A stretch of DNA of 33,774 nt from assembly GCA_903832025.1 (NCBI GenBank), contig CAIKZY010000088.1:1-33774 (forward strand), given 5' to 3'. Position 1 is the stretch's first letter, and every line of letters starts with the position of its first letter. This document shows, piece by piece, positions 7,244 through 30,413 of this stretch. The DNA is from an uncultured Actinomycetes bacterium. GTDB lineage: Bacteria; Actinomycetota; Actinomycetes; S36-B12. Under the pieces are notes generated by a model. The model was given only the letters and a program-made list of their open reading frames with translations. It was not told where the DNA came from and did no database searches. The translations under genes were made by a program, and so were the position numbers.

Positions 7244-8347
7244 TCACACGTCCTGGTGGCCGTTGTTGGACGCAAAGGACTCCTCGCGCCACAAGTCCAG
7301 CGAATGGATCATCGGGAAGTCATTGAAGTTGAACAAGAATGCGGGATTGTCCGCATCGTCGTTGTGATGCTCATGCCATGCCCAGCTCGGCACGACGAAG
7401 ATGTCGTGCTCCTTCCAGTCAAAGCGGCGCCCGTTGATGATCGAGTGTCCGCGACCCTCGGCCACGTGGTACACCACGCTGCCGGTATGGCGGTGCGCTT
7501 GGCCGGCGAAGCCGGCATGGAGCATCTGCATGTGCGCGCCCATGGTGGGCATGACCGAGCCACCGGTGACCGGATTGACGTATTCCATGATCACCCCGTC
7601 CCACACGGTTCCGTCGGAGACCTTGCCCAAGTTCTCCACGGCCTCTCGGGTCATCGCCCACGGGTAGCCCAGGCACGGGGAATAGCGCCTGCTCCAGGAC
7701 CGGCCGTCGGGCTTGAGCATGCCCGCACCGTGCGTCAGGAGCGAGGTGTTGATCACCTTTCCCGGCACCTGGTACAGGTCGGGGTGTACTTGGTAGAAGT
7801 TGGCATCGAGGGCATTGACCAGCGGGATGTCCAGGCCGTCTTGCCAGATCACGAAGTTGTCCTGCGCCTCATTGCCATGCTCGTGCCAGGTGCCATTGGG
7901 CGTGATGGCAAAGTCGTTGGGGCCAACGCGCAGACGATCGCCGTCCACGATCGTCCATGCGCCGGATCCCTCCACCACAAAGCGCAGCGCACTGGCCGCA
8001 TGCCGGTGGGCGGTCATCGACTCACCGGGATTCATGATCTGCAGTCCGGTGTAGAGCAGGCCCACCGCGGCAGAGATGTCCTTGCGGCCCTCATTGACCA
8101 GCATGATCACCCGGCGTCCGGCCTTTTCTCCCTGGACCAGGGAGGCTGATTCCACGACCAGGGGCCGAATGTCCTGGTAGGCCCAGTGCATGGGCACGGA
8201 CTTGGGCATGGGGAACCAGGGCTCGATCTCGTTGGCAACGGTCCATAGGGCGCCGGTTCCCAGCCCTTCCAGCCGCTGGTAAAACTCCTCGAGCTCCTCG
8301 GTGTCGTGGACGCGCGCGCGGCCGGCGACTTCTTCGATACGGGCCAT
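7244..8347 (-). CDS. Gentisate 1,2-dioxygenase-family bicupin ring-cleavage dioxygenase
   Basis: The chosen ATG at 8347 has AGGAG seven nt upstream; an in-frame start at 8389 would add 14 unconvincing residues. The protein is 367 residues, normal for the family. The N-terminal cupin carries the metal ligands in MTAHRHAASALRFVVEG (His114, His116) and TWHEHGNE (His155). A second cupin near residues 290-340 has AHRHTGSVVYHVAEG and SWAWHEHHND. Fe(II) members cleave gentisate to maleylpyruvate; relatives cleave salicylate, 5-substituted salicylates or 1-hydroxy-2-naphthoate. It leads the minus-strand operon and is divergent from the nitrilase-headed operon. Given the isatin- and anthranilate-type genes nearby, 5-hydroxyanthranilate is a possible substrate (inference). 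Confidence 0.9.
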   Translation of the reverse strand: MARIEEVAGRARVHDTEELEEFYQRLEGLGTGALWTVANEIEPWFPMPKSVPMHWAYQDIRPLVVESASLVQGEKAGRRVIMLVNEGRKDISAAVGLLYTGLQIMNPGESMTAHRHAASALRFVVEGSGAWTIVDGDRLRVGPNDFAITPNGTWHEHGNEAQDNFVIWQDGLDIPLVNALDANFYQVHPDLYQVPGKVINTSLLTHGAGMLKPDGRSWSRRYSPCLGYPWAMTREAVENLGKVSDGTVWDGVIMEYVNPVTGGSVMPTMGAHMQMLHAGFAGQAHRHTGSVVYHVAEGRGHSIINGRRFDWKEHDIFVVPSWAWHEHHNDDADNPAFLFNFNDFPMIHSLDLWREESFASNNGHQDV

Positions 8348-8497
8348 GACCACACTCCTGTCTGATTGCTGCAATCGCGTGAAACCCACGGAAACCTGCC
8401 GTGATCTTTGATCAAATGATACCGTACTGCCCGCAACCTGACCAGAGTTCGCCCCAAGTGGGCTGGATTGATGCAGTAGTTAAAGAGGTGTGAATCG
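8348..8497. promoter_or_regulatory. Divergent promoter region with TTTGATCAAA palindrome
   Basis: This 150-nt gap separates the dioxygenase operon from the nitrilase operon and must hold both promoters. A perfect 10-bp palindrome TTTGATCAAA lies at 8407-8416. TGATC steps recur about every 7 nt around it (TGATCTTTGATCAAATGAT), so two overlapping dyads are present. GATACC a few bases later could be a -10 element for the plus strand. No matching regulator can be assigned. Confidence 0.55.
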
Positions 8498-9493
8498 GTG
8501 CTGACCTACCCGTCCTATCGAGCCGCCGCCGTTCAGGCCGCGCCGGTGTTCTTGGACACCGACGCCACGATTGCCAAGGCCTGCGCACTGATAGCCGAAG
8601 CGGCCACCAATGGGGCGAAGTTGGTGGTGTTTCCCGAGGTGTTCGTCCCGGGGTATCCGTACTGGAACTGGACCATGACCCCGGGCCAGGGAAGCCCATG
8701 GTTTGAACGGCTGTTTCGCTCGGCGATCAACGTGCCCGGCCCGGAAGTGGACACCTTGTGCGCTGCTGCTGCCGCCGCCGGTGCATTCGTGGTCATGGGT
8801 GTCAACGAGCGCGACCCCTATTCGATGGGGACGTTGTACAACTCGCTGCTGTTCATCTCCGACACCGGTCAGCTCCTGGGCGTGCATCGCAAGCTGGTGC
8901 CGACCTGGGCCGAGAAGCTCACCTGGGGTAACGGTGATGGCAGCTCGCTGCGCATCTATGAAACATCCATCGGCCGTGTGGGCGGCCTGGCGTGCGGTGA
9001 GAACACCAACACCCTTGCGCGCTTTGCCCTCTTAGCCCAGGGGGAGAACATTCACACCGCCAACTACATCGCCTTGCCCACCGCGCCAGAGGACTACGAC
9101 ATGGTCGAGGCGATCAAGGTGCGCGCAGCGGCTCACTCCTTTGAGGGCAAGGTCTTCACCGTCGTGGCCAGCTCGGCCATTACCGACCACATCATCGACG
9201 CTGTGGCACACGATGACGCCAGCCGCGCGATGCTCTCGCGCAAGCACTGTGCGTTCTCGGGGATCTTTGGCCCAGACGGGCGCCTGATCTCCGAGCCCTT
9301 GATCGATGTGGAGGGCATCGCGTACGCCGATATCGACCTGAACAAGTGCATTCAACCCAAGCAGATGCACGACATCATCGGTCACTACAACCGCTTCGAC
9401 GTCTTCCAGTTGCGCATCAATCGCGCGCCTTTGGCCTCAGCCGAATTCGCCGACTGGCAGGACGTCACCGACCTGAACCCGCCGACCACCTAA
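8498..9493 (+). CDS. Nitrilase-superfamily C-N hydrolase
   Basis: Starts at GTG with AGAGG nine nt upstream; 331 residues. The catalytic triad is visible as Glu47 (VFPEVFVPGYP), Lys132 (HRKLVPTW) and Cys166 (GGLACGENTN). The length and the PGYPYWNW and YEMV-like helix regions fit branch 1 nitrilases, which turn nitriles into acids and ammonia. The residue after the nucleophile is Gly where many nitrilases have Trp (CWEN). It opens a long plus-strand operon with two FAH hydrolases and a maleate isomerase. Possible roles are hydrolysis of an aryl nitrile such as indole-3-acetonitrile, or amide hydrolysis of a ring-cleavage product; the sequence alone does not decide. Confidence 0.88.
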   Translation: MLTYPSYRAAAVQAAPVFLDTDATIAKACALIAEAATNGAKLVVFPEVFVPGYPYWNWTMTPGQGSPWFERLFRSAINVPGPEVDTLCAAAAAAGAFVVMGVNERDPYSMGTLYNSLLFISDTGQLLGVHRKLVPTWAEKLTWGNGDGSSLRIYETSIGRVGGLACGENTNTLARFALLAQGENIHTANYIALPTAPEDYDMVEAIKVRAAAHSFEGKVFTVVASSAITDHIIDAVAHDDASRAMLSRKHCAFSGIFGPDGRLISEPLIDVEGIAYADIDLNKCIQPKQMHDIIGHYNRFDVFQLRINRAPLASAEFADWQDVTDLNPPTT

Positions 9494-9515
9494 GAACAAC
9501 ACCGACAGGAGCATC

Positions 9516-10418
9516 ATGCGTTTTGTAACCTTCAGTTCCCCGGACAACGCCACGTCCCGCATTGGCGTGGTGCAGGGGGACACCGTGGTTGACCTGGCAG
9601 CCGCGCTGGCCGGCACCGTGGCCATTCCGCAGACCCTGTTGGCATACATCAGTGCAGGCAAGGCATTCCACGCGCAGACCGAGCAGGCACTGGCCGCGGC
9701 AACGGTGCCCGATAGCACTCGGTTCGACATCAGCTCGGTGCAGTTGCACGCACCACTTCGTCCGACCAAGGTCGTTGGGGTGGGACTGAACTACGTGGAG
9801 CACGTCGAGGAATCCTCGCGCACCCTGGACACCGACAAGGACCTGCCGACGCGTCCGGTGCTGTTCTCCAAGCCCGCGACCGCCGTCACCGGACCGGGTG
9901 CACCGATCTGGCACAACGGCGAGCTGACCGCGCAGTTGGACTGGGAATGCGAACTTGCCGTGGTGATGGGCACTGAGGCCAAGCATGTTGCCGAAGCCGA
10001 TGCCCTGGACTACGTCTTTGGCTACTCCATCATCAATGACATCTCCGCCCGTGACCAGCGTCGAAGTGGCCAGTGGTTCTTCTCCAAGGGCCAGGACTCC
10101 TACGCTCCCTTCGGGCCGATGGTCGTTACCGCCGATGAGATCGGAGACCCGCACACCCTGCAGCTGTCGCTGACGGTCAATGGCGATCAGCGCCAGAACG
10201 GCAACTCCAAGCACATGCTGTTCAAGATCCCGACGCTGATCGCCGACATCACCTCGGGCATGACGCTGGAGCCCGGCGATGTCATCGCGACCGGTTCGCC
10301 CCAAGGAGTGGGTGCGGCCATGAACCCGCCGACATTCCTGCAGCCCGGTGATGTCGTTGCGTGCACCATTGATCGCATCGGCACGCTGTCCAACCCGGTC
10401 GTGGCGGTCACGGCATGA
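9516..10418 (+). CDS. Fumarylacetoacetate hydrolase-family protein (fumaryl/maleylpyruvate hydrolase-like), first copy
   Basis: The protein has 300 residues, with AGGAG seven nt before the ATG. A FAH domain covers about residues 75-295: the metal-binding acidic residues are in QLDWECELAVVMG (E-x-E) and the later Asp of INDISARDQRR. Other conserved segments are WFFSKGQDSYAPFGPMVV and MTLEPGDVIATGSPQGVG. Family members hydrolyse C-C bonds of ring-cleavage products, here most plausibly maleylpyruvate, fumarylpyruvate or an amide analogue, to pyruvate plus a C4 acid. The stop overlaps the maleate isomerase start (ATGA), supporting consecutive steps. Confidence 0.88.
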   Translation: MRFVTFSSPDNATSRIGVVQGDTVVDLAAALAGTVAIPQTLLAYISAGKAFHAQTEQALAAATVPDSTRFDISSVQLHAPLRPTKVVGVGLNYVEHVEESSRTLDTDKDLPTRPVLFSKPATAVTGPGAPIWHNGELTAQLDWECELAVVMGTEAKHVAEADALDYVFGYSIINDISARDQRRSGQWFFSKGQDSYAPFGPMVVTADEIGDPHTLQLSLTVNGDQRQNGNSKHMLFKIPTLIADITSGMTLEPGDVIATGSPQGVGAAMNPPTFLQPGDVVACTIDRIGTLSNPVVAVTA

Positions 10419-11170
10419 GCAAGACCAAGTACCGCGTGGGCTTGATCGTTCCGAGTTCCAACGTCACGATGGAAACCGAAATCCCGGCCATGCTGCACGC
10501 GCGGGAGGCAATCCGCCCCGAGCGTTTCACGTTTCACTCCTCGCGCATGCGCATGAAGTCGGTGACCAAGGAAGAACTCGAGGCGATGGACGATGAGTCC
10601 GATCGCTGCGCCGTGGAACTGTCGGACGCCGCCGTTGACGTCATGGGGTACGCATGCCTGGTGGCGATCATGACCCGAGGCGTGGGCTACCACTGCATGT
10701 CCCAGGAGCGGCTCAGTGCGCGGGCGGCGGCTGAGGGTAGCCCCGCGCCGGTCGTGACCAGCGCCGGTGCCCTGGTGGATGCATTGCAGGTGATGGGCGT
10801 GAAGAAGATCGCCCTGATCGCCCCGTACATGAAGCCACTCACCGAACAGGTCGTTGCGTATATCGAGCACGAAGGTGTTGCCGTAGTGGACTACACCGCC
10901 TTGGAGATTGCGGACAACCTTGAAGTTGGCGCGCAGGATCCGATGAACCTGGTCGAGATCGTCAAGGGACTGAACCTTGACGATGCCGACGCGATCGTGC
11001 TCAGTGCCTGCGTGCAGATGCCCAGCCTGGAAGCCATTCAGGTGGTGCAGGATGCCACGGGCAAGCCCGTGCTGTCCGCGGCGGTGGCAACCACGTACTT
11101 CCTGCTGAAGGAACTGGGGCTGGAAACCGTGGTGCCCAATGCCGGTGCCCTGCTCAGCGGGCAGTACTAA
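10415..11170 (+). CDS. Maleate cis-trans isomerase-family protein (Asp/Glu racemase superfamily)
   Basis: The protein has 251 residues. The N-terminus RVGLIVPSSNVTMETEIP is characteristic of maleate isomerases and arylmalonate decarboxylase relatives. Two cysteines at the expected catalytic positions are present: Cys81 (GYACLVAIM) and Cys199 (LSACVQMPS). In the family a cysteine adds to the double bond and isomerises maleate to fumarate, with no cofactor. Overlap of 4 bp with the FAH gene suggests that the hydrolase releases maleate, which is isomerised here and fed to the TCA cycle. This points to a route in which the cis C4 acid is freed before isomerisation. Other racemase-like activities cannot be excluded. 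Confidence 0.85.
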   Translation: MSKTKYRVGLIVPSSNVTMETEIPAMLHAREAIRPERFTFHSSRMRMKSVTKEELEAMDDESDRCAVELSDAAVDVMGYACLVAIMTRGVGYHCMSQERLSARAAAEGSPAPVVTSAGALVDALQVMGVKKIALIAPYMKPLTEQVVAYIEHEGVAVVDYTALEIADNLEVGAQDPMNLVEIVKGLNLDDADAIVLSACVQMPSLEAIQVVQDATGKPVLSAAVATTYFLLKELGLETVVPNAGALLSGQY

Positions 11171-11178
11171 TCAGTGCG

Positions 11179-12111
11179 ATGAGTGTGGCCATCGATGTGC
11201 ATACGCACTTGGCTCCGGTTGCCGCCGCGCTGACCGATCCGGGTGTCACTGTCGATGCCGAGCGCATCGTCATCGATGGTCAGACGGTCGGCGTTGCCGA
11301 CCTGTATCGGCCTGCAGCATTGGTGGACTACCTCGATCACGCCGGATTTGCATCGGCGTGGGTGTCGGCACCCCCGCCGTTTTATCGCCAGGACCTGGCC
11401 GCGGATCGCTGTGCGCAGTGGGTCCAGGACGTGCATGCCGGACTGGTGGAGGCGTGTGCGCAGTCCGGCAGGCTGCGCCCGATTGCCTATCTGCCACTGG
11501 AGCATCCTGAAGTGGCGATCGAGCGCTACCAAGCCGTTCGCCACCAGAACACGGTGGTCACGGCCGCAGCAGGCGGAGGTTCGGTGCGCCTGGATGATGC
11601 GGCCCTGGCACCGTTGTGGCAGGCGATGAACGCCGATCAGGGGGTGCTCTTGCTGCACCCGGGCTCCACACCGGACCATCGTTTGGCTGCGCATTACCAG
11701 GAGAATCTCACCGGGAACCCGACCGAAACCGCGATTGCGCTGTCCCAGTTGATCTTCGGAAACGTGCTGAGCGCACATCAACAGCTGCGCATCGTGACCG
11801 TCCACTGCGCCGGCACGATGCCCATGCTGGCCGGCAGGTGGCAACGAGGCATAGACACCAAGCGTCCGGGCCTGCCCGAACCGGCAGTCGACCTTCCTGC
11901 CGCGCTGCGCCAGATCTGGTTCGACTCCATCGCCCATGACCCCGCAGCGATGGCCCTGGCCGTGCAGGTCCTGGGAGCTGATCGACTGGTTCCGGGCAGT
12001 GATTGGCCCTTCCCGATGGGCTCCGGTGATCCGCTGGCCGACATCGCCGCGTGCGATGCGACGCTGGTGCAGCAGGCTATTGACACCGTCGCGCAGCTGG
12101 CAACCGCATGA
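11179..12111 (+). CDS. Amidohydrolase-family protein, ACMSD-like decarboxylase/hydrolase
   Basis: The protein has 310 residues and an amidohydrolase-2 fold. Metal ligands are DVHTH (His8, His10), His209 in TVHCAGTMP and Asp275 in VPGSDWPFP. The closest characterised relatives are 2-amino-3-carboxymuconate-6-semialdehyde decarboxylase and other zinc- or manganese-dependent decarboxylases acting on aromatic or muconate acids. The gene starts 8 nt after the isomerase stop, with no clear Shine-Dalgarno site, and overlaps the following dehydrogenase by 4 bp, so it is probably read through from upstream translation. The substrate is unknown; a carboxylated ring or ring-cleavage product is plausible. 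Confidence 0.75.
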   Translation: MSVAIDVHTHLAPVAAALTDPGVTVDAERIVIDGQTVGVADLYRPAALVDYLDHAGFASAWVSAPPPFYRQDLAADRCAQWVQDVHAGLVEACAQSGRLRPIAYLPLEHPEVAIERYQAVRHQNTVVTAAAGGGSVRLDDAALAPLWQAMNADQGVLLLHPGSTPDHRLAAHYQENLTGNPTETAIALSQLIFGNVLSAHQQLRIVTVHCAGTMPMLAGRWQRGIDTKRPGLPEPAVDLPAALRQIWFDSIAHDPAAMALAVQVLGADRLVPGSDWPFPMGSGDPLADIAACDATLVQQAIDTVAQLATA

Positions 12112-13136
12112 AGCAATGCCTGGACACCGAACTCATCACGTGCGTGATGCAGCTGTTCCAGGCCGTTGGCGTCAGTCAGTCCGATGCCCGGCAGGTTGCC
12201 ACGCACCTAGTTGATGCTGATCGCCAGGGCCAGCCGTCGCATGGGGTGATGATGGTCGAGCTGTACCTCAAGCGGTTGCAGGCCGGATCGGTCAATGCCA
12301 GTGCGCAGCCGGTCATCGTCTGCGATGCCGGCGCAGTGGTGCTGATGGATGCCCAGCACTGCCTGGGCCAGATCAGCGCCGAGCAGGGCATGCAGGTGGC
12401 CATCGGCAAGGCGCAGGCGCTGGGCATCGGACTGTGCACCGTGCGTCATGCATTTCACTTCGGGCTGGCCAGCACGTGGGCGTCGATGGCCGGTGCGCAC
12501 GACATGATCGGTATCGCGATGGCCAATACCCGGCCGCTGATGCCGGCACCGGGCGGTGGTGCACCGGTGGTCGGCAATAACCCGCTGGCCATTGCCATGC
12601 CGGGCAGGCATCCGGTCGTGCTGGACATGGCGATGTCCGCGGCGGCGATGGGCAAGATCCGTCATGCGGCCCAATCGGGTCACGTGATCCCCGATACCTG
12701 GGCCACCGATGCTGCCGGCATCCCCACGACCGATCCGCAGGAGGCGATCACCGGCATGCTGCTGCCGGTCGGCGGGGCCAAAGGCTTCGGGCTGGCGCTG
12801 ATGGTGGACCTGCTCACCGGCGGCCTGTCCGGTGGCGGAGTCGGTGCCAGCGTGAACGGACTGTATGCAGACCCGGCAGTGCCATACGGCAGCTCCCAGA
12901 CCTTCATCGCGATCAATGCCGAGCTGCTGGGCACCGCGGATGCATTGCTCGCCTCGGTGGACCAGCTGTCCGGTGCCGTGCATGATTCCCATGGCCGGGT
13001 GCCCGGAGAGCGCACCGCTGCCCTGCGCGGCAGCGGTGGACACCGCATCACCCTCTCCGATGCCATCGCTGCGGACCTGGCGGATGCATGCCGGCGCCTT
13101 GATGTGCCAGGGTGTGTCATGGAGGAGGTCGCGTGA
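12108..13136 (+). CDS. Ldh-family (malate/L-lactate/ureidoglycolate dehydrogenase type) NAD(P) oxidoreductase
   Basis: This 342-residue protein belongs to the Ldh2/MDH2 superfamily, which is not Rossmann-based. Seen are ADRQGQPSHGVMMVELYLKR near residues 40-60, HFGLASTWA (catalytic-type His), GNNPLAIAMPG and the nucleotide-binding GGAKGFGLALMVDLLTGGLSGG near residues 225-245. Members reversibly oxidise 2-hydroxyacids or reduce 2-oxoacids or cyclic imines. The ATG overlaps the amidohydrolase stop, and its own stop overlaps the GTG of the SDR gene, so it lies inside a tightly coupled operon. Its substrate cannot be deduced; a 2-hydroxyacid formed in the lower pathway is the simplest guess. Confidence 0.82.
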   Translation: MKQCLDTELITCVMQLFQAVGVSQSDARQVATHLVDADRQGQPSHGVMMVELYLKRLQAGSVNASAQPVIVCDAGAVVLMDAQHCLGQISAEQGMQVAIGKAQALGIGLCTVRHAFHFGLASTWASMAGAHDMIGIAMANTRPLMPAPGGGAPVVGNNPLAIAMPGRHPVVLDMAMSAAAMGKIRHAAQSGHVIPDTWATDAAGIPTTDPQEAITGMLLPVGGAKGFGLALMVDLLTGGLSGGGVGASVNGLYADPAVPYGSSQTFIAINAELLGTADALLASVDQLSGAVHDSHGRVPGERTAALRGSGGHRITLSDAIAADLADACRRLDVPGCVMEEVA

Positions 13137-13861
13137 AGGCACGCTTTGATGCCAGTGGCTGCGTCCTGGTGGTCACCGGTGGTGCACACGGCATCGGCCG
13201 GGCGATCGGCGAGGCGTATGCCGCCGCCGGTGGAACCAGCTACCTGCTGGACATTGCCCCGAGCACGGACCTGCCGGCCAATGTGCACGCCCTGCCGTGC
13301 GACGTGTCCGATCGGTCAGCGGTGTTGGCGGCCATCGGGACCGTGAGCGATGCCCATGGCCGGATCGATGGCCTGGTTGCCGGCGCGGCCATTCAACCGC
13401 GCATCGCCGTGGCCGATATCAGTGAGGACACCTGGCGGTCGGTGCTGGACGTCAACCTCAATGGCGTGGTGTGGGCAGTGCAGGCGGTGTTGCCGGTCAT
13501 GCAATCCCGGCGTACAGGGTCGATCGTGATGTTCGGTTCAGGCCTGGGCACCAATGGTCGTGCGCAGGCTGCTGCCTATGCCGCCAGCAAGGGGGCGCTG
13601 GTCTCGCTGGCCAAGTCCGTTGCGGCCGAAGTGATCGCCGATCGCATTCGGGTCAACCTGCTGTATCCGGGGGTTATCGATACCGCGCAGTTCCGGGCAG
13701 CCAATCAGGGACCGGAGCGGGAGTTTTGGGAGCAGACCATCGGGGTGGGTACCGCCGGCGATGTCGTCGGACCGGCGATGTTCTTACTCTCCGGCGCGGC
13801 GACGATGACCGGATCGATTCTCAGCAGGGACCGAGCCTTCTCCGGAGATGACGATGACTGA
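13133..13861 (+). CDS. Short-chain dehydrogenase/reductase (SDR)
   Basis: The GTG start at 13133 is preceded by GGAGGAGG and overlaps the upstream stop (GTGA), giving 242 residues. An ATG at 13112 would put the ribosome site inside the gene. The cofactor motif TGGAHGIGRAIGEAYA is at residues 15-30, DVSD follows, and the active-site residues are in DVNLNGVVW (Asn), MFGSGLG (Ser) and YAASK (Tyr, Lys). The usual NNAG motif is replaced by VAGAA. The acidic residue after beta-2 (LLDIAPS) favours NAD over NADP. It overlaps the FAD hydroxylase gene by 8 bp. Likely a dehydrogenase for an alcohol or dihydrodiol-type intermediate; the substrate is unknown. Confidence 0.85.
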   Translation: MKARFDASGCVLVVTGGAHGIGRAIGEAYAAAGGTSYLLDIAPSTDLPANVHALPCDVSDRSAVLAAIGTVSDAHGRIDGLVAGAAIQPRIAVADISEDTWRSVLDVNLNGVVWAVQAVLPVMQSRRTGSIVMFGSGLGTNGRAQAAAYAASKGALVSLAKSVAAEVIADRIRVNLLYPGVIDTAQFRAANQGPEREFWEQTIGVGTAGDVVGPAMFLLSGAATMTGSILSRDRAFSGDDDD

Positions 13862-15428: not shown

Positions 15429-15475
15429 GGGCCGGCACGGTCTACTGGCTTGTTCATCGACGAAAGGAATGCACC

Positions 15476-16346: not shown

Positions 16347-16354
16347 GACCGATC

Positions 16355-22650: not shown

Positions 22651-22681
22651 TTCCCCTCCAAGGCTTGCCCATGACTGCGTA

Positions 22682-22714
22682 TATCGCAAAGATGTCGATC
22701 GTCAGTTTTGCATA
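22682..22714. promoter_or_regulatory. Dyad operator in the divergent promoter of the two oxidoreductases
   Basis: TATCGCAAA is separated by 15 nt from TTTTGCATA, a near-inverted copy, with a CGATCG palindrome at the centre (22696-22701). The left arm is the exact reverse complement of TTTGCGATA found before the fused monooxygenase gene. The site lies between starts at 22650 and 22739. Confidence 0.55.
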
Positions 22715-22738
22715 GGACACGCGGGATTGGGTCTGTTC

Positions 22739-24283: not shown

Positions 24284-24286
24284 GCA

Positions 24287-24309
24287 AGCACCCCTGATTG
24301 GGGCCTGCT
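24287..24309. terminator. Small convergent hairpin
   Basis: AGCACCCC, loop TGATT, then GGGG, two bulged C and TGCT form a stem between the convergent oxidoreductase and PaaX-like genes. Its strength is moderate and there is no T-tract. Confidence 0.45.
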
Positions 24310-25130
24310 CAGGTGGGAATCTGCTCCCTGGCGAAAGCCAGGGCTTGGCCGGCCAGCTTGTCGTGAATGTCGAAGAACACCGCCGTGCCGGTACGACCAG
24401 GCCAGGACTTGGGCAAGTACGCCGCCGGCAGCCCGGGATCCAGATACGGAATAGCCCGCCAGGCCGTCAGCGCACGGGTGTAGTCGGCGAAGGCGGCGCG
24501 GGACTGACTGGCGCGGGCAGGGGCCTTCCACCGATTGGCCATCGGGCGAAACGCCTTGGTGAAACTGGTGTAGAGGTCGGCGATGGCATCCAGGTCCCAC
24601 CATTGCCGGACGACCTGCGCACTGGGTCGAAAGCCGATGTGCTCGGCGGTGAACAGATCCACGCACTGCTGGATCTGCAAGCTGGACACCACATGGCGCA
24701 GGTCCTGCTCGAGCTGGCGCGGTGCGATCCACAACCCACCGCTGACCTGTGCAGAGCCGATCGCGGACAGCCGGGAGCGCAGTCGATAGCGCACGTCACG
24801 CTTGGTCTCAGGAATGGAGAATGCCGCCAGCACCCACCCCATGTCGGCCGGTGGATGCCTGCGCTGCAGCACGCGCGCATCGCCAAGGTCGAATGTCGTT
24901 CGCGCCACTGGTGCCAGGGCGTAGCCGGCCAGTCCATTGTGTCGCTCGGCAAGCACGATGCCGCGGCGCTTCATCCGAGACAGCGCACCGCGGACGCTGG
25001 ACTGGTCGATATCGACCAGGGTCAGCATGTCCACCAGTGAGGACACCGGGAACCAGCCACCCAATTGGCGGCTGTAGGCACCGTAAATCGTCACGATCAG
25101 CGATTGCGGACGCTGCGCCCGCGCGGTCAC
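24309..25130 (-). CDS. PaaX-family transcriptional regulator
   Basis: The GTG at 25130 is preceded by GGGGAAAG at 7 nt and gives 273 residues; a GTG at 25160 is an alternative. The N-terminal winged-helix PaaX domain (about residues 1-80) has LIVTIYGAYSRQLGGWFPVSSLVDMLTLVDIDQSSVRGALSRMKRRG, seen here in short pieces such as QSSVRGALSRMKRRG. The middle and C-terminal domains carry GLWIAPRQLEQDL and RTGTAVFFDIHDKLAGQA. PaaX proteins repress catabolic operons and respond to an aryl-CoA such as phenylacetyl-CoA, so this one may sense the aryl-CoA made here (inference). It faces the LLM gene across a gap that contains a 23-bp tandem repeat. Confidence 0.82.
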   Translation of the reverse strand: MTARAQRPQSLIVTIYGAYSRQLGGWFPVSSLVDMLTLVDIDQSSVRGALSRMKRRGIVLAERHNGLAGYALAPVARTTFDLGDARVLQRRHPPADMGWVLAAFSIPETKRDVRYRLRSRLSAIGSAQVSGGLWIAPRQLEQDLRHVVSSLQIQQCVDLFTAEHIGFRPSAQVVRQWWDLDAIADLYTSFTKAFRPMANRWKAPARASQSRAAFADYTRALTAWRAIPYLDPGLPAAYLPKSWPGRTGTAVFFDIHDKLAGQALAFAREQIPT

Positions 25131-25190
25131 GTCGATGCTTTCCCCGCTGATCCCCGCCACGCAGCGCAGCCTAGGGCACGCCCGCGCCGG

Positions 25191-25236
25191 CTGGACAGGA
25201 CAGCGCGTGCGGCCTGGACAGGACTGCGCGTGCGGC
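25191..25236. repeat. Two tandem 23-bp repeats in the PaaX/LLM intergenic region
   Basis: Two abutting 23-bp units (25191-25213 and 25214-25236) both begin CTGGACAGGAC and end GCGCGTGCGGC, and differ at one base. The period of about two helical turns places both copies on the same face of the DNA, as expected for a tandem regulator site. Confidence 0.8.
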
Positions 25237-25352
25237 TTGGGCTGCTTCAGCGACCAGGATTCCGCGCAAAGTGGATAGACGAAGGACGCCTGGCTTGGCC
25301 ACGATGGGACCAACGTGCTCTGGACGGTCCAGATCCCTTGGGAGGAGATCAC

Positions 25353-26453
25353 ATGGCAAAGGCGATCCTTGACGGTATGGATTTCAAACTCGGCTTGTTC
25401 TCGTCGAACTGCTCGTCAGGGCTGGCGGTCACCAAGGCCCCTGACCGGTGGTCGGGAAGCTGGGATGACAACCTGCGTCTGGCCAAGATCGCCGACGAGG
25501 TCGGCATTGATTTCCTGCTGCCCATCGCTCGCTGGATCGGCTACGGCGGCGAGACGAACTTCCATGGCAGCGTGCTGGATCCCATCACCTGGGCCGCCGG
25601 GCTGCTGGCCAACACCAAGCGCATCTTCTGCTTCGCCACGGTCCATACCGCCTACAACCATCCGATCGTGATCGCCAAGCAGATGGCCACCGTCGACCAG
25701 ATCAGCAAGGGCCGCGCGGGCATCAATGTGGTTGCGGGCTGGAACAAGCCCGAGTACGACACCTTCGGCATGGACCTGCCGCAAGACCACGATGCTCGCT
25801 ACGCCCTGGCACAGGAGTGGCTCGATGTGATCGTGAAGATCTGGACTACGCCGGGACAGTTCGACTGGGACGGGCAGTTCTACCACTTGCAGCATGTTGA
25901 GGGCCTGCCCAAGCCTTATGACGGCGTTCTGCCGATCTTGAACGCCGGTTCCTCCGGCCAGGGTCGTACCTACGCGGCCCGCAATGCCAACTTCGGCTTC
26001 ACGGTCGTTGGCGGCCCTGAGGACGGTGCGGGCGTGGTCACGGCTATTCGCGATGAGGCCAAGAACACCTTCCACCGTGATATGGGCGTCTTCACCCTGG
26101 GCCATGTCGTGGTGCGGCCCACCCAGCAAGAGGCCGAGGACTTCTTGCACTACTACGCAGAGGAAAACGCCGATTGGGACGCGGTGGAAAACCTCATGGC
26201 ATTGCAGGGGCTGCACGCGCAGTCCTTCACTCCCGAGATGCTGTCCATGTTCCGCGGTCGCTTTGCCGCCGGTCATGGCTCATGCCCGCTGATTGGCGAT
26301 CCGGACACGGTTGCCAACGAGATTGCCCGGTTCGCCGAAGCCGGATTCGGCGGCATGACGCTGGCCTTCTTGGACTACGCCGAGGAGCTGCCGTATTTCG
26401 CGCAGGAGGTACTGCCGCGCCTGGAAGCCAAGGGCGTTCGCTTGCCGCGGTAA
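25353..26453 (+). CDS. LLM-class flavin-dependent monooxygenase (RutA/SfnG-like)
   Basis: The ATG at 25353 follows GGGAGGAG and gives 366 residues. It is a bacterial luciferase-like barrel: LGLFSSNCSSGLAVTK at the N-terminus, FHGSVLDPITWAAGLLANT, VHTAYNHPIVIAKQMATVDQ, GRAGINVVAGWNKPEY and PILNAGSSGQGRTYAARNA. These segments resemble RutA-type pyrimidine oxygenase and dimethylsulfone monooxygenase, which use reduced FMN from a partner reductase. A flavin reductase and a WrbA-like protein lie just downstream. It could oxygenate a heterocycle, but the substrate is not evident. Confidence 0.88.
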   Translation: MAKAILDGMDFKLGLFSSNCSSGLAVTKAPDRWSGSWDDNLRLAKIADEVGIDFLLPIARWIGYGGETNFHGSVLDPITWAAGLLANTKRIFCFATVHTAYNHPIVIAKQMATVDQISKGRAGINVVAGWNKPEYDTFGMDLPQDHDARYALAQEWLDVIVKIWTTPGQFDWDGQFYHLQHVEGLPKPYDGVLPILNAGSSGQGRTYAARNANFGFTVVGGPEDGAGVVTAIRDEAKNTFHRDMGVFTLGHVVVRPTQQEAEDFLHYYAEENADWDAVENLMALQGLHAQSFTPEMLSMFRGRFAAGHGSCPLIGDPDTVANEIARFAEAGFGGMTLAFLDYAEELPYFAQEVLPRLEAKGVRLPR

Positions 26454-26474
26454 TTCCCGCCAAACGGCTATTTG

Positions 26475-26536
26475 ACGACCGCCACGTTCCCGTAGGATCG
26501 CGTGAACAGCGAGGACTTCCGGGAGGTGGCGGTCGT
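26475..26536. promoter_or_regulatory. Long-spaced inverted repeat before the AraC-like gene
   Basis: ACGACCGCCAC at 26475-26485 is matched by its exact complement GTGGCGGTCGT at 26526-26536, with 40 nt between. The second arm overlaps the GGGAGG ribosome site and abuts the proposed TTG start. It could be an autoregulatory site or an mRNA stem masking translation. Confidence 0.5.
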
Positions 26537-27499
26537 TTGGCTTCACGACAAGTGACCGTCGGTCATCGCACTGCCTCGGTGGTTGCCAGCCGCAGCGCGC
26601 ACGTGCTGCAAGAGCAGGTTGCCAGCGTCACCCCGCATGAGGTGCGGCCGCAGGGGATCGGTCCGTACGACCTCGATGGCATGGCCGGTGTCTTGAATCT
26701 GCCGCACACTCGGTTGGTCTTCGTGCGCTATGGCGGCTCGGTGACCGTGGAGGCTCCTGCGACCGGTGAACGGGTGGTCGCAACCATCCCGCTCGGACCG
26801 ATGGACGTGTGCATCGGGGCCGACCGTCGTGCTACGACGCACCACAGCGCCTTCGTGCTGTCTGAGCATGCTCGCACCGTCATGCGTCCAGATCCATGGG
26901 CCGGTGCGCTCGTGCTCGCGGTGGACAGCCAGTTCATGGCCGCGCACAGCGCGGACGTGATCGGGGACAGCGCGATGACCGCATTTCGCGTGCAGTCTGG
27001 CGGTGATGCCCCTGAACGGCTGGCCAGCGCCTGCAAGCGCGCGTGGAACAGCACCGCGCACATCGATGATGATATCCCGGCCAGTGGGTACCTGACCGCC
27101 GTTGAGGACGACTTGCTGACCGCACTGACCCTTGCCTGCGATGTCGACAGTCGCACGCAGCACCCGGTTCGCGTGCGCACGCAGTCGCTGATCCAATGGT
27201 TGCGGTCCAACCATGACGAATCGGTGACCGTCACGGCCATGGCACGGGTCATGGGACTGAGCGTGCGCCAGTTGCAGGATGTGGTGCTGCGAGATACCGG
27301 GCTGACACCGATCCACCTGCTTCGTCAGGTGCGATTGGATGCAGCCCATCGACAGCTGCTGTCTGCATCTAGTGACGTCACGACGGTTGCCGCAGTGGCA
27401 TATGCCTGCGGTTTCAGCCACGTCGGCCGCTTCAGCGCGGTGTATGCCGCACGATTTGGCGAATATCCGCACGCAACCCTTCGAAGGGCACCATGGTGA
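26537..27499 (+). CDS. AraC-family transcriptional regulator
   Basis: The first reasonable start is TTG at 26537, ten nt after GGAGG, giving 320 residues; a GTG at 26552 is an alternative without a ribosome site. The N-terminal ~190 residues form an AraC-binding-like sensor domain, and the C-terminal ~100 residues contain two helix-turn-helix motifs: VTVTAMARVMGLSVRQLQDV and TTVAAVAYACGFSHVGRFSA. It ends with YAARFGEYPHATLRR, typical of HTH_18 activators. It sits between the LLM monooxygenase and the flavodoxin gene, which it overlaps by 7 bp, and probably activates this set in response to an aromatic effector. Confidence 0.82.
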   Translation: MASRQVTVGHRTASVVASRSAHVLQEQVASVTPHEVRPQGIGPYDLDGMAGVLNLPHTRLVFVRYGGSVTVEAPATGERVVATIPLGPMDVCIGADRRATTHHSAFVLSEHARTVMRPDPWAGALVLAVDSQFMAAHSADVIGDSAMTAFRVQSGGDAPERLASACKRAWNSTAHIDDDIPASGYLTAVEDDLLTALTLACDVDSRTQHPVRVRTQSLIQWLRSNHDESVTVTAMARVMGLSVRQLQDVVLRDTGLTPIHLLRQVRLDAAHRQLLSASSDVTTVAAVAYACGFSHVGRFSAVYAARFGEYPHATLRRAPW

Positions 27500-28104
27500 A
27501 GCAGGTAACCATCGCAGTGATCTACTACTCGTCAACGGGCAATGTTGCGCAGATGGCGCATGCAGTGGCCGATGGCGCTCGAGCTGCGGGCGCGGAGGTA
27601 AAAGTTGCCCGCGTTGCCGAGACGGCCCCGCAGCAGGCGATCGACCACAACCCCAAATGGCAGCAGTTTCTCACCGAGAACACTGACCCCATCGCGAGCC
27701 TGGAAGACCTGACCTGGGCGAACGGCCTTGCCTTCGGGAGCCCGACCCGCTTCGGCGGCCCGGCCTCGCAGCTGAAGTCCTTCTTGGACACCACTGGCAG
27801 CCTGTGGTTCCAAGGCGAGCTGGCCAAGAAGGTGTGCACTTCATTCACCACTGCGTCGACGCAGCATGGCGGCCTGGAGTCGACGATCCTGGCGCTGAAC
27901 AATCACTACTACCACTGGGGCTCGATGGTGATGCCACTTGGCTATGGCGACCCGCACGTGATGAAGGTAACCGGGAACCCGTACGGCGCCTCCTGGGTCT
28001 CTCGTTCGGGTGCCTCGCCAGATGCCGACTGCCTGCAGGCCTGTCGCGCTCAAGGTGCACGCCTGGCACAGGTCACCCGGCAACTGAACACCCCGATGGC
28101 ATGA
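27493..28104 (+). CDS. WrbA/flavodoxin-like NAD(P)H:quinone oxidoreductase
   Basis: The protein has 203 residues, with AAGG before the ATG. The FMN phosphate loop is VIYYSSTGNVAQMAHAVADG at residues 8-27, and the ring-binding loops are GSPTRFGGPASQLKSFLDT near 80 and STQHGGLESTILAL near 120. WrbA-type proteins carry out two-electron reduction of quinones, avoiding semiquinones. Its partners here are the overlapping AraC regulator and flavin reductase genes. It may reduce a quinone or quinone-imine formed from a 5-hydroxylated aminobenzoate, or serve as a flavin carrier for the LLM enzyme; both are inferences. Confidence 0.88.
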   Translation: MVKQVTIAVIYYSSTGNVAQMAHAVADGARAAGAEVKVARVAETAPQQAIDHNPKWQQFLTENTDPIASLEDLTWANGLAFGSPTRFGGPASQLKSFLDTTGSLWFQGELAKKVCTSFTTASTQHGGLESTILALNNHYYHWGSMVMPLGYGDPHVMKVTGNPYGASWVSRSGASPDADCLQACRAQGARLAQVTRQLNTPMA

Positions 28105-28757
28105 CGGGGATTCCCGAGCGCATCCTCACCGACCCGAGCAGCCAGGGGGTCTACGGATTGCTCGGCGCTCTGGTCAGCCCACGGCCGATCGCGTGGGTCA
28201 GTACCAAGAGTGCTACCGGCGTGGACAACATCGCCCCGCACTCCTTCTATCAACTGGTCAGCACCACGCCGCCCATCGTGATGATCAGCTCGATGGGGGA
28301 GAAGGACACGGTGCGCAACATCCGTCACAACGGCCAATTTGTGGTCTGCGGAAGCGCGGGGCAGTGGGTGGAGCAGATCAATGCCACCGCGACCGAGTTC
28401 GGACCGGACGTCAGCGAATTCGACATGGCGGGCCTGACCCGCGAGCCAAGCCAGATGGTCACCCCGTGCCGCGTCGCTGAGTCACCGTATGCACTGGAAT
28501 GCCACCTGGTCGACATCCACGAAGTCGGCAATGGACTGGTGGTGTACGGACAGGTGGTGCTGATTGCGGTCAGCGCATCAGTCATGAACGGTTCTGGCAT
28601 CGACATGGCCGCTTTGAATCCGATTGCTCGATTATCTGGCTCGGACTGGTCGCTGCTGGGGCGCACGATCACCGTCGATCGGATGAGCGTGGACACCTTC
28701 CGGGAGCGGTATCCCCACGGCATGGGACCGGCATCGGGGCGCCCGTCTGGGGATTGA
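28101..28757 (+). CDS. Flavin reductase-family (DIM6/NTAB-like) protein
   Basis: The ATG at 28101 overlaps the WrbA stop (ATGA) and gives 218 residues. The FMN-binding split barrel is marked by PRPIAWVSTKSATGVDNIAPHSF (in short: PRPIAWVST, NIAPHSFYQLVS) near residues 27-53, PPIVMISSM and KDTVRNIRHNGQFVV. Such proteins supply reduced flavin to two-component monooxygenases. The LLM monooxygenase encoded 1.6 kb upstream on the same strand is an obvious partner. It is last in the gene run before the operator of the ligase gene. Confidence 0.85.
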   Translation: MTGIPERILTDPSSQGVYGLLGALVSPRPIAWVSTKSATGVDNIAPHSFYQLVSTTPPIVMISSMGEKDTVRNIRHNGQFVVCGSAGQWVEQINATATEFGPDVSEFDMAGLTREPSQMVTPCRVAESPYALECHLVDIHEVGNGLVVYGQVVLIAVSASVMNGSGIDMAALNPIARLSGSDWSLLGRTITVDRMSVDTFRERYPHGMGPASGRPSGD

Positions 28758-28775
28758 CATCGTGAATCCGGCAAA

Positions 28776-28808
28776 AGGTCAACACCGTTGACCTGAAGTG
28801 CCTATTCT
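28776..28808 (+). promoter_or_regulatory. Promoter with perfect dyad operator; leaderless ligase transcript likely
   Basis: A perfect 19-bp dyad AGGTCAACACCGTTGACCT lies at 28776-28794. A -10-like TATTCT is at 28803-28808, seven nt before the ATG at 28815. No Shine-Dalgarno sequence fits between them, so the mRNA may start at the ATG. The dyad covers the -35 position, as expected for a repressor site. Confidence 0.6.
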
Positions 28809-28814
28809 CCCGAT

Positions 28815-30413
28815 ATGACCACTGCGCAGGTCGATACCTTTGCATTGGATCGGCTACCAGCACGTGCCGCCTGGCCGGTCATGACCGCCATGGGCTACCC
28901 CGAGCGCACCAACTGCGCCGTGACCCTGCTGGACCAGACGGTTGCTGACCTGGGCCCGAATCGACCGTGCATCACGGCCGACGATGCGACGTGGACCTAC
29001 GGCGAGCTCCTGGACAGCGTTGAACGCTGCGCATCGGTGCTGGCGAACTGGGGGGTCCAATCGGGCAACCGGGTACTCCTGCGCATTCCGAATAACGCCT
29101 GGCTGGCTGCATCATGGCTGGCGATCTTGCGCATCGGCGCCATCCCGGTCACCACGATGACCATGATGCGCCATCTGGAACTGGCCAAGGTCATCGATAT
29201 CGCCAACGTCCAGTGGGCCATCGTCGATCACCGATTCACGCAGGAGTTCGATGACTTCGCGGTGCCGACGCTGATCAGCGGCGGTGAGCAGGCTGACACC
29301 CTGCAAGCCCAGGCTGCGCGTGTGCGCGACCGCGTCGCACCCTGTGCGACCTATGCCACCGATATCGCCCTGCTGGCCTTCACCTCAGGCACCACGGGCA
29401 AGCCCAAAGCCACCATGCACACCCACGCCGATGTCCTGGCAATTGCCGACACCTTCAGTGCGCAGATCCTCAAGCCCAACGCCGATGACGTGTTCTGCGG
29501 CACTCCGCCGTTGGCGTTCACGTTCGGGCTCGGCGGCCTCCTGATCTTCCCGCTGCGCGTTGGGGCATCCACAGTGCTCATCGAACAGGCCGACCCCGCG
29601 GCGGTATTGCAGACGATCGCCGGTCATCGGGTGTCATGCCTGTTCACCGCTCCGACGGCCTATCGGGCGTTGCTGTCGGTGCTCGGCCAGGCCCAGGCGG
29701 CCGGGGCCATGGTGGACATCTCATCCCTGCGCCGGTGCGTGTCCGCAGGGGAAACTCTTCCTGAGGCGATTTGGACCCAGTGGTTCACCCAGACGGGCGT
29801 GAAGCTCATCGATGGCATCGGCGCGACCGAGATGCTGCACATCTTCATCAGTGCCGCAGATGACGACATCGTTCCCGGCGCAACCGGGCGCCCGGTGCCC
29901 GGCTACGAGGCGATGGTCGTGGACGATGCGTTCAAGCCGGTTCCCCCCGGTGAGCTCGGCCGTCTGGCGGTACGCGGCCCAACCGGCTGTCGCTATCTGG
30001 ATGACGATCGGCAACAGATCTATGTCCAGCATGGATGGAATGTCACCGGCGACATCTACACCTGCGATGAGCGCGGCTACTTTCGCTACATCGCCCGCGG
30101 CGACGACATCATCGTGTCCTCCGGGTACAACATCGCCGCTCCGGAAGTCGAGGCGGCGCTGCTGATGCACGACGCAGTCGCCGAAGTCGCAGTCGTCGGC
30201 GATCCAGACGAGCAGCGAGGCATGATCGTGCATGCGTTCGTGGTGCTCAACGACGGAGCCGATGCAGCGCAGATGACCGTGACACTGCAAGAGCACGTCA
30301 AGTCGATCATCGCGCCCTACAAGTATCCGCGCAAACTCACGTTCGTGGACGCGCTACCGCGGACGGCAACCGGCAAGCTCCAGCGCTTTCGACTGCGCGA
30401 CGGGCTGGGCTAG
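28815..30413 (+). CDS. Aryl-CoA ligase, 2-aminobenzoate-CoA ligase-like (ANL superfamily)
   Basis: The protein has 532 residues. The AMP/ATP loop is TSGTTGKPK (residues 190-198), followed by the motif regions GTPPLAFTFGLGGLLIFPLR, LRRCVSAGETLP, DGIGATEMLHIF, GWNVTGDIYTCDE and SSGYNIAAPEVE. The C-terminal catalytic lysine is Lys521 (RTATGKLQRFRLR). The set SLRRCVSAGE, GATEMLHIF and GWNVTGD is, from memory, most typical of 2-aminobenzoate-CoA and benzoate-CoA ligases. It would make the aryl-CoA used by the fused monooxygenase. It has its own operator and overlaps the convergent Lrp-like gene by 4 bp at the stops. Salicylate is an alternative substrate. Confidence 0.85.
   Translation: MTTAQVDTFALDRLPARAAWPVMTAMGYPERTNCAVTLLDQTVADLGPNRPCITADDATWTYGELLDSVERCASVLANWGVQSGNRVLLRIPNNAWLAASWLAILRIGAIPVTTMTMMRHLELAKVIDIANVQWAIVDHRFTQEFDDFAVPTLISGGEQADTLQAQAARVRDRVAPCATYATDIALLAFTSGTTGKPKATMHTHADVLAIADTFSAQILKPNADDVFCGTPPLAFTFGLGGLLIFPLRVGASTVLIEQADPAAVLQTIAGHRVSCLFTAPTAYRALLSVLGQAQAAGAMVDISSLRRCVSAGETLPEAIWTQWFTQTGVKLIDGIGATEMLHIFISAADDDIVPGATGRPVPGYEAMVVDDAFKPVPPGELGRLAVRGPTGCRYLDDDRQQIYVQHGWNVTGDIYTCDERGYFRYIARGDDIIVSSGYNIAAPEVEAALLMHDAVAEVAVVGDPDEQRGMIVHAFVVLNDGADAAQMTVTLQEHVKSIIAPYKYPRKLTFVDALPRTATGKLQRFRLRDGLG

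Follow-up and report, generated by a model that had tools for sequence, protein, structure and literature searches.

The window analysed here is the entire contig CAIKZY010000088.1 (33,774 nucleotides; C88 of a 2.2-Mb assembly with 187 contigs, 98% complete) of an uncultured bacterium of the Actinomycetes (S36-B12). It carries an island of catabolic genes which, in our estimation, rather probably encodes the aerobic breakdown of isatin, formed from indole or indole-3-acetate, by eight proposed steps to pyruvate, ammonia, and fumarate. Isatin arises in the breakdown of indole and of the plant hormone auxin. The key element is a gene pair of the indolepyruvate oxidoreductase (IOR) family, which, as judged from sequence comparison, most likely forms 2-aminobenzoyl-coenzyme A (2-aminobenzoyl-CoA) directly from isatinate. 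The genes of the route and a ligase gene are the following (genomes, contigs, and loci are numbered with G, C, and L, respectively):

2418 to 3983, minus strand: IORb, IOR beta-family subunit (POR and DUF6537; NF006179), IadB type
3980 to 6148, minus strand: IORa, thiamine pyrophosphate (TPP)/iron-sulphur subunit (PF02775; TIGR03336 below its cut-off), IadA type
7244 to 8389, minus strand: GDO, bicupin dioxygenase of the two-metal type (best PDB match 3bu7; Met at codon 15), proposed 5-hydroxyanthranilate 1,2-dioxygenase
8498 to 9493, plus strand: NIT, nitrilase-superfamily hydrolase (PF00795; signature CGENTNTLARF), proposed maleamate amidase
9516 to 10418, plus strand: FAH1, hydrolase of the fumarylacetoacetate-hydrolase (FAH) family (PF01557), proposed maleamylpyruvate hydrolase
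10415 to 11170, plus strand: MAI, maleate cis-trans isomerase (4fq7)
17752 to 20112, plus strand: FUS, fused flavin adenine dinucleotide (FAD) monooxygenase/Old Yellow Enzyme (OYE) (NF006101, 1060 bits), proposed 2-aminobenzoyl-CoA 5-hydroxylase
20203 to 20970, plus strand: ISH, isatin hydrolase (full-length match to isatin hydrolase A, 5nnb)
28815 to 30413, plus strand: LIG, aryl-CoA ligase of the benzoate/2-aminobenzoate type (matches to 4wv3 and 2v7b)
C71:3819-4232, on another contig of the same genome: 4HBT thioesterase, found with a broader query

ISH would open isatin to isatinate, i.e., 2-aminophenylglyoxylate (step 1), and IORa/IORb would oxidatively decarboxylate isatinate with CoA directly to 2-aminobenzoyl-CoA and CO2 (step 2). 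The FAD half of FUS would hydroxylate C5 of 2-aminobenzoyl-CoA (step 3), and the thioesterase encoded on the adjoining contig would release 5-hydroxyanthranilate (step 4), which GDO would cleave between C1 and C2 to maleamylpyruvate (step 5); since C2 bears the nitrogen, the cleavage product should be an amide, by analogy with gentisate chemistry. FAH1 would split maleamylpyruvate into pyruvate and maleamate (step 6), NIT would remove ammonia from maleamate (step 7), and MAI would convert maleate to fumarate (step 8), while LIG would provide a second entry for free anthranilate from elsewhere. The gene linkage and residue changes described below were established by computation, and from them we infer the reactions of steps 2 to 7; steps 1 and 8 are suggested by close similarity to enzymes with solved structures. 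A first-pass annotation of this DNA had already proposed isatinate, a CoA-bound 2-aminobenzoyl intermediate, 5-hydroxylation, ring cleavage, and the same end products, all of which we retain, but it had assigned the CoA step to the ligase at 28815 and had left NIT (8498-9493) unused. The route as corrected here, with the CoA step by IOR and an amide tail, is held with moderate confidence on sequence grounds.

Every enzyme family named in that annotation was recovered at its position by profile and PDB sequence comparisons. The island is larger than the interval 7244-30413 first assigned to it, since the IOR pair at 2418-6148 belongs to it, and it is truncated by the left contig end. When searched for in other genomes, the gene set was found in the congeners G001 and G002 and, distantly, in Caballeronia sp. 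SBC1, Pseudomonas gessardii, and Paenalcaligenes. In the two congeners, the order IORb-IORa-TTC-GDO / NIT-FAH-MAI ... FUS-ISH-CRTa/CRTb-PaaX-LLM is kept with 53-86% identity (in G002 spread across two contigs; the genes not yet introduced are listed further below), and because the same order recurs in both, the set is not a chance assembly. G001 and G002 also share the liv, AraC, and flavin reductase genes with the window, and their ligase gene is located on contigs different from that of the island.

As the ortho-amino form of phenylglyoxylate, isatinate belongs to the 2-oxo acids, and enzymes of the IOR family convert a 2-oxo acid and CoA to an acyl-CoA and CO2. For this reason isatinate is the most likely substrate of the pair, and a direct formation of 2-aminobenzoyl-CoA would require neither free anthranilate nor an ATP-dependent ligase. 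IORb scores 638 bits on NF006179 (cut-off 348) and thus belongs to the IOR family, whereas IORa reaches 273 bits on the TIGR03336 equivalog (cut-off 650.9; Caballeronia homologue, 290 bits) and therefore does not qualify as an indolepyruvate oxidoreductase proper. Its TPP motif and seven C-terminal cysteines are invariant across ten aligned sequences, and no PDB relative of IORa was found at E 0.001.

The distribution of these genes was surveyed in 166 genomes of the order to which the window belongs, identities being those of the matches to the window proteins. ISH (71-100% identity) is present in 19 genomes, with only weaker relatives (38-42%) in 11 further ones, IORa (74-100%) in 23, GDO (74-100%) in 18, LIG (59-100%) in 19, and FUS in 26. 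All 19 genomes with ISH contain IORa, compared to 4 of the 147 others (G005, whose contig ends inside FUS, G017, G120, and G013), and all 19 also carry FUS; LIG accompanies ISH in ten of them and is missing from nine. Each of the 26 genomes with FUS carries either IORa (20) or LIG (the remaining six), as if two ways existed of charging the substrate with CoA, with the caveat that divergent AMP ligases (25-29% identity) are found on some of these contigs. In genus g3, ISH and IOR are both present in four genomes, side by side and apart from FUS, and both absent from six, several of the ten genomes being only 57-85% complete.

The association extends beyond the order. Among the best 80 named genome loci matching IORa, 43 have ISH in the fetched stretch, and of the 16 sequences of an actinobacterial IORa clade, 13 are accompanied by ISH and the remaining three by FUS or GDO. 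Of 88 FUS loci, 36 contain ISH: 23 of these have IOR, seven have another TPP enzyme, none has both, and six have neither; the six are contigs of the window's family, and their genomes have IORa elsewhere. The other TPP enzyme resembles pyruvate oxidase and benzaldehyde lyase and lies 3-81 bp from ISH in the seven loci lacking IOR (L180:9729-11369, L282, L293, L295, L296, L299, and L304); it is a candidate isatinate decarboxylase. A ligase of the type found with FUS occurs in 7/7 of these loci and in 4/23 of those with IOR (Fisher 1.6e-4 for loci with ISH and FUS, a value that ignores kinship among related sequences), a pattern expected if the other TPP enzyme yields the free acid or aldehyde and IOR the CoA ester. 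The ligase as sole CoA step has accordingly been downgraded, as it is absent from many ISH genomes and follows the other TPP enzyme.

ISH matches 5nnb with an E value of 2e-87 over 255 residues (134 of 253 residues identical). It keeps the site residues H69, H73, D75, H79, D193, and H207 of LaIHA together with W59, W61, and W80, the substitutions being Q219 to T and Y204 to F. By full-length similarity and by its Mn-site and catalytic residues, the predicted product of 20203-20970 fits an isatin hydrolase.

FUS of the window scores just below the cut-off of NF006101 (bifunctional salicylyl-CoA 5-hydroxylase/oxidoreductase; 1060 versus 1078 bits), and that of Caballeronia exceeds it (1333 bits). 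Four solved relatives share the OYE motif E-[ILV]-H-x-x-H-G-Y, where the window reads E-L-Q-F-G-H-G-F, so that Q574 and F579 replace the His and Tyr of the OYE dyad, which we take to be the substrate-binding His191 and the proton-donor Tyr196 in OYE numbering. The intact His/Tyr pair, chosen here as the feature of a 2-aminobenzoyl-CoA monooxygenase/reductase, is thus lacking. Within the main FUS clade, alterations of the pair are confined to FUS linked to GDO (10 of 12, compared to 0 of 53 others). In this count, G113 was scored as linked with its GDO on another contig (9 of 11 without it), other genomes with GDO on another contig were scored as not linked, L190 (same contig as G005) and FUS gapped at either position (e.g., G099, G102, L257) were left out, and a distant clade, delimited by us from the tree plus the short rows L303 and L308, was tallied apart. 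Linkage to GDO needs at least five changes on the FUS tree, and FUS with an altered dyad occur in four separate places: a Burkholderiales/Pseudomonas clade, a Novosphingobium pair, the genus of the window, and G113. The OYE half has also diverged more than the FAD half (63 and 80% identity to G001), the latter being ahead by 2 to 19 points over eight partners of the window FUS, compared to differences of -10 to +6 points in pairs with an intact dyad. We propose from these replacements that the ene-reductase half is impaired; with its catalytic residues lost, the ring would stay aromatic.

The thioesterase of step 4 is 57% identical to that of G001, and a 4HBT gene also lies inside the islands of G001 and G002. 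The right end of C71 and the left end of the window map about 80 bases apart in G001, so that C71 is most likely the left neighbour of the window. Among 28 genomes chosen by us, a 4HBT match was obtained in 15 of 20 with FUS or IOR and in none of eight without. An earlier query of the Tsukamurella type was dropped; it gave matches of 29-42% in 25 of 40 relatives, not linked to the cluster in the window's genome.

GDO has its best PDB match in 3bu7 (469 bits) and keeps the His ligand motifs of both cupins, in agreement with a two-metal bicupin fold. According to excerpts of one report, the 3bu7-type bicupin has two iron centres, and the C-terminal cupin is typically vestigial (PMC10306065). The 3bu7 chain is identical over 362 residues to the product of a Ruegeria pomeroyi cupin gene (L187:9797-10921), which lies between a CN hydrolase gene and FAH/racemase genes, a few genes from IORa-IORb-thioesterase. 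On TIGR02272 (gentisate 1,2-dioxygenase; cut-off 442.1) the proteins of the window, R. pomeroyi, and Caballeronia remain below the cut-off with 331, 290, and 330 bits, respectively. FAH1, whose matches include the maleylpyruvate hydrolase 6jvv (E 3e-38), adjoins GDO or NIT in 13 genomes of the family. The catalytic Glu, Lys, and Cys of NIT are present in 14/14 aligned sequences and the signature CGENTNTLARF in 13/14, a Novosphingobium paralogue reading CWEN. Of the 18 genomes of the family that have GDO, 17 carry a CN hydrolase gene beside or facing it (in the 18th, G121, the contig begins inside GDO), and such a gene also occurs in the GDO module of seven of nine proteobacterial loci, sometimes separated from GDO by FAH (Caballeronia, Shinella, Ruegeria, P. 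gessardii, Paenalcaligenes, Pseudoduganella, and Novosphingobium Leaf2, where a distant paralogue with 38% identity takes the same divergent place as in the window). Since a ring without nitrogen at C2 would give such an enzyme no task, NIT is the best pointer to an amine substrate. MAI matches 4fq7 (332 bits, E 1.8e-98), and both active-site Cys regions are kept in 7/7 aligned sequences, as expected for an isomerase.

Clusters with these functions are also found in distant bacteria. On pSBC1_4 of Caballeronia sp. SBC1, IORa-IORb-thioesterase-FUS-cupin dioxygenase-FAH-CN hydrolase-Asp/Glu racemase stand in a row on one strand, followed by a MarR gene on the opposite strand and an ISH of the cyclase family; the 32 kb read around this cluster contain no ligase gene. 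P. gessardii and Paenalcaligenes hominis have ISH, IOR, thioesterase, FUS, GDO, FAH, and NIT together, with no racemase seen in the stretches, and Novosphingobium Leaf2 has the same functions (ISH, IOR, thioesterase, FUS, GDO, FAH) with its distant nitrilase paralogue. Plasmid 13 of Tsukamurella tyrosinosolvens carries IORb, IORa, ISH, a nitrilase-related gene, a major facilitator superfamily transporter gene, FUS, ligase, thioesterase, small cupin, FAH, RidA, and PaaX, and Azospirillum thermophilum has IORa-IORb-reductase-Rieske genes-ligase-short-chain dehydrogenase/reductase (SDR), then FUS-SDR-enoyl-CoA hydratase-acyl-CoA dehydrogenase-thioesterase-RidA. From this variety it follows that ISH, IOR, and FUS can feed at least two lower routes, cleavage by GDO or one of the beta-oxidation type; the small-cupin sets of Tsukamurella and Arthrobacter Rue61a may represent a third. 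A set of small cupin, 4HBT_3-type thioesterase, FAH, RidA, ligase, and PaaX was also observed around FUS in L178, L322, L323, and L327 (Actinomycetota), which suggests another lower pathway from 2-aminobenzoyl-CoA.

Several observations weigh against the proposed route. The window itself carries a ligase. Of 95 IORa stretches, 27 have neither ISH nor FUS/GDO nor the iad oxygenase set; 17 of the 27 are incomplete, and ten have at least 9 kb on both sides. This count ignored ISH matches below 50% identity, so that L188, with a cyclase-family gene adjoining IORa, was scored as lacking ISH; in L206 and L250, two stretches with no ISH seen, the neighbours of IORa include transporter genes and genes for a LysR regulator, a ferredoxin-like protein, and a thioesterase. 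The GDO-linked FUS of G005 and G010 retain the dyad, in seven genomes (G004, G014, G025, G031, G033, G121, G122) GDO lies apart from a FUS whose dyad is intact, and 15 of the 20 members of the distant FUS clade lack the dyad with no close GDO. No thioesterase match was obtained in genus g3 (four genomes tried) and G092. GDO may accept gentisate, since the structurally solved dioxygenase closest to it bears the name gentisate dioxygenase, and the nearest solved relatives of NIT are nitrilases rather than amidases. NIT is absent from the stretches of Cupriavidus L318 (IS66 after FAH) and Novosphingobium L182 (which starts at GDO), and the GDO module had no MAI beside it in G004, G005, G010, G013, G031, G033, and G122, nor was one seen in the stretches of L211 (where the contig ends), L233, and L256, so that the last step is not always linked. 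Finally, Arthrobacter Rue61a, in which FUS stands in another context, did not grow on 5-hydroxyanthranilate according to the published excerpts available (PMC3534580).

The alternative that survives best, in our opinion still an unlikely one, is that isatinate is decarboxylated to free anthranilate, which LIG would activate to 2-aminobenzoyl-CoA for FUS and GDO, with IOR as a bystander of tryptophan/indolepyruvate metabolism. LIG does lie inside the island, has its nearest relatives among anthranilate- and benzoate-CoA ligases (275 bits to 4wv3 and 272 bits to 2v7b, respectively), and is the divergent neighbour of FUS in G099 and G102, and a ligase is present in all seven loci where the other TPP enzyme adjoins ISH. 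Opposed to this are the tracking of ISH by IORa in 19/19 genomes, with LIG in only 10/19, and the distance of 3-42 bp (between tblastn match ends) that separates IOR from ISH in Pimelobacter, Nocardioides, Nocardia, Sphingomonas, and Novosphingobium (L182, L192-L195, L247, L256). In addition, four clusters of proteobacteria (L183, L211, L233, L256) yielded no ligase in the surrounding stretches. An indolepyruvate enzyme also has no obvious step in the iad loci, which begin at indole-3-acetate.

The formulae C8H7NO3 and C7H7NO are those of isatinate and its decarboxylation product. In the excerpts available of an independent preprint of 2025, compounds of these two formulae accumulate in Variovorax overexpressing iadC-K2 in an iad-locus deletion background, and only in such strains, and iadC-K2 restored anthranilate (PMC12633357). 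IadA/IadB of the iad auxin-degradation loci are an IOR alpha/beta pair, iadA (gene 72) adjoining iadR (gene 73) inside a 25-gene hot spot; the two genes are described as exclusive markers of auxin-degrading loci whose bacteria reverse root growth inhibition, and isatinic acid is among the metabolites of the locus (PMC9613470, in part). From this position of iadA beside iadR we infer that the iadC-K2 strains lack iadAB, names not used in the main text of the preprint as available (PMC12633357). Read in this way, the accumulation of the two compounds speaks for the proposed route. Anthranilate is then apparently made without iadAB, so that IadAB seems non-essential for this purpose in Variovorax, a point in favour of the free-anthranilate alternative and against step 2 as proposed. 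The published accounts of the iad locus that were searched, in so far as accessible, gave no role for IadAB, and none of the literature passages and listings covered here contained an assignment of an isatinate:CoA oxidoreductase, which is no proof that none is published.

It is improbable, though less so than the salicylate route, that FUS is a classical 2-aminobenzoyl-CoA monooxygenase/reductase followed by beta-oxidation, with GDO, NIT, FAH, and MAI serving another substrate. Many FUS loci carry enoyl-CoA hydratase and acyl-CoA dehydrogenase genes, the OYE dyad is kept in many members of the family, and G010 has neighbours of both the GDO and the beta-oxidation type. The stretches of the window, G001, and G002, however, contain GDO with no such hydratase/dehydrogenase pair and have the altered dyad, and FUS directly adjoins GDO in Caballeronia, Cupriavidus, P. 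gessardii, and Paenalcaligenes.

The SdgABCD-type route of Streptomyces (sdg) runs from salicylate via salicylyl-CoA to gentisate. Its counterpart here, with maleylpyruvate as the following intermediate and ISH as an unrelated neighbour, was named in the first-pass annotation as the main competitor; in spite of the NCBI name of FUS (salicylyl-CoA 5-hydroxylase) and the resemblance of GDO to gentisate dioxygenases, we consider it very improbable in view of the GDO scores below the gentisate cut-off, the scan of 30 window ORFs, which yielded no maleylpyruvate isomerase family, a CN hydrolase encoded next to GDO that would be useless for gentisate, the presence of isatin hydrolase, kynureninase, and quinaldine genes near FUS in annotated plasmids, and the failure of Rue61a, which has FUS, to grow on salicylate (PMC3534580, in part). 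Kynureninase genes lie within 8 kb of FUS on three named plasmids of Aminobacter, Thalassospira (in the same gene run as FUS, with kynA), and Arthrobacter, the alkylquinolone dioxygenase gene aqdC1 lies near FUS in Rhodococcus BG43, and on the quinaldine plasmid pAL1 of Arthrobacter Rue61a the FUS gene adjoins a ligase gene. In the accessible parts of the report on Rue61a, ARUE_113p00220 and ARUE_c41730 have anthranilate-CoA ligase activity, anthranilate-grown cells hold a CoA ester presumed to be hydroxyanthraniloyl-CoA, and the strain grows on anthranilate and on neither salicylate nor gentisate (PMC3534580). By its gene company FUS is an anthranilate enzyme, and a pathway for isatin/aminobenzoate is a more likely role of the gene set than one for salicylate.

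The proposed isatin route shares features with several known systems. With the aerobic 2-aminobenzoyl-CoA pathway of Azoarcus evansii and Arthrobacter Rue61a it has in common the type of aryl-CoA ligase, the fused monooxygenase/OYE, and a CoA-bound 2-aminobenzoyl intermediate; it differs in the proposed entry from isatinate by IOR, the altered ene-reductase dyad, and bicupin cleavage with an amide tail in place of beta-oxidation of the reduced ring. Phenylglyoxylate oxidoreductase, a multi-subunit enzyme, converts an aryl-glyoxylate and CoA to aryl-CoA and CO2; the chemistry of IOR would be the same, the enzyme of the island being of the two-gene IOR-family type and encoded beside oxygenases. 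Salicylyl-CoA 5-hydroxylase/gentisate pathways such as sdg share the fused-enzyme annotation, ligase type, and gentisate-dioxygenase fold, whereas isatin hydrolase, IOR, and the CN hydrolase are features of the island, in which maleylpyruvate isomerase was not seen. Like the iad loci of Variovorax, Achromobacter, and Bradyrhizobium, the window has an IOR alpha/beta pair equivalent to IadA/IadB (PMC9613470, in part), and in those of Variovorax and Achromobacter IORa-IORb occur with an ISH relative (presumably IadI by gene order). Unlike these loci, the window does not carry the genes by which indole-3-acetate is attacked there (Rieske iadCDE, ligase, and thiolase); no Rieske oxygenase was detected among the 30 window ORFs scanned, so that iadDE beside iadAB, as in an iad locus, are missing. 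A gentisate pathway of anthranilate has been reported for Nocardia opaca (Cain 1968) and Alcaligenes In3 (Claus and Kutzner 1983) (cited after excerpts of PMC4539516 and PMC6221969), and as of 2018 no gene for such a route was known according to the latter. It resembles the route proposed here in the 5-hydroxyanthranilate intermediate (in Nocardia) and gentisate-type cleavage; in contrast, the island would keep the nitrogen through ring cleavage and release it as an amide.

The remaining genes of the window are accessory or lie in an inserted block:

490 to 2295, plus strand: branched-chain-type ABC permease, liv (PF02653; the ORF may start too early)
6167 to 7234, minus strand: TTC, tartrate dehydrogenase family, accessory (TIGR02089, 488 bits; cut-off 470)
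11179 to 17649, plus strand: inserted block with amidohydrolase, Ldh_2, SDR, FAD hydroxylase, two cupins, RidA, and FAH2 (Pfam)
21070 to 22689, minus strand: CRTa, CrtI/CrtO-like FAD oxidoreductase, conserved beside ISH/IOR
22508 to 24283, plus strand: CRTb, second CrtI/CrtO-like FAD oxidoreductase (start probably near 22742)
24309 to 25352, minus strand: PaaX-family regulator (PF07848/PF20803/PF08223), also in G001, G002, and G010
25065 to 26453, plus strand: LLM, luciferase-like flavin monooxygenase, SfnG/RutA-like (PF00296; start near 25380)
26174 to 27499, plus strand: AraC-family regulator (PF12833; true start later)
27493 to 28104, plus strand: WrbA-type NAD(P)H:quinone oxidoreductase (NF002999, over cut-off)
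27804 to 28757, plus strand: flavin reductase (PF01613; true start later)

The liv gene is the conserved left neighbour of the island, with the same position in G001, G002, and G010, and likely serves uptake. TTC stands beside GDO in G001, G002, G005, G013, G017, G031, G113, G120, and G122; the tartrate dehydrogenase family includes D-malate dehydrogenases. In G001 and G002, MAI and FUS are not separated by the block at 11179-17649, which contains FAH2 at 16756, and the block is therefore probably a separate lineage-specific insertion; it may be a second aromatic-degradation module and is not needed for the proposed route. Block and FAH2 were for this reason dropped as pathway parts, and of the two FAH hydrolases that had been placed in the pathway the second falls outside the conserved set. 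CRTa might perhaps act in an upstream oxidation towards isatin. LLM is strongly conserved with the island (77-84% identity in G001, G002, G005, and G010) and could make an isatin precursor, the stretch 25065-28757 also encoding WrbA and the flavin reductase, which adjoins LLM in G005, G010, and G113 and is its likely partner. After the ligase, positions 30470-30707 correspond to a stretch sited between MAI and FUS in G001 (C1:16664-16901), a sign of rearrangement; by eye, its ORF resembles an Lrp/AsnC ligand-binding domain. Close to the right contig end lies an integrase-core (rve, HTH_21) transposase gene (32553-33416, minus strand).

We think it fairly probable that the IadA/IadB-type pair is an isatinate:CoA oxidoreductase, i.e., an aryl-glyoxylate dehydrogenase that would act aerobically, yield 2-aminobenzoyl-CoA without ATP, and represent a so far unassigned reaction, and that, together with a 5-hydroxylase with a dead ene-reductase half and an amide tail, it forms a new and complete route by which indoles are converted to fumarate, pyruvate, and ammonia in Actinomycetota and Pseudomonadota. 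The island would thus supply candidate genes for a breakdown of anthranilate or isatin via 5-hydroxyanthranilate or gentisate, a chemistry reported in 1968 and 1983 (PMC4539516; PMC6221969, both in excerpt). This reading gives IadA/IadB a testable role and suggests a compound other than gentisate as the natural substrate of the 3bu7 "gentisate dioxygenase" from Ruegeria pomeroyi. It also allows those fused monooxygenase/reductases that would stop at hydroxylation to be predicted from their sequences.

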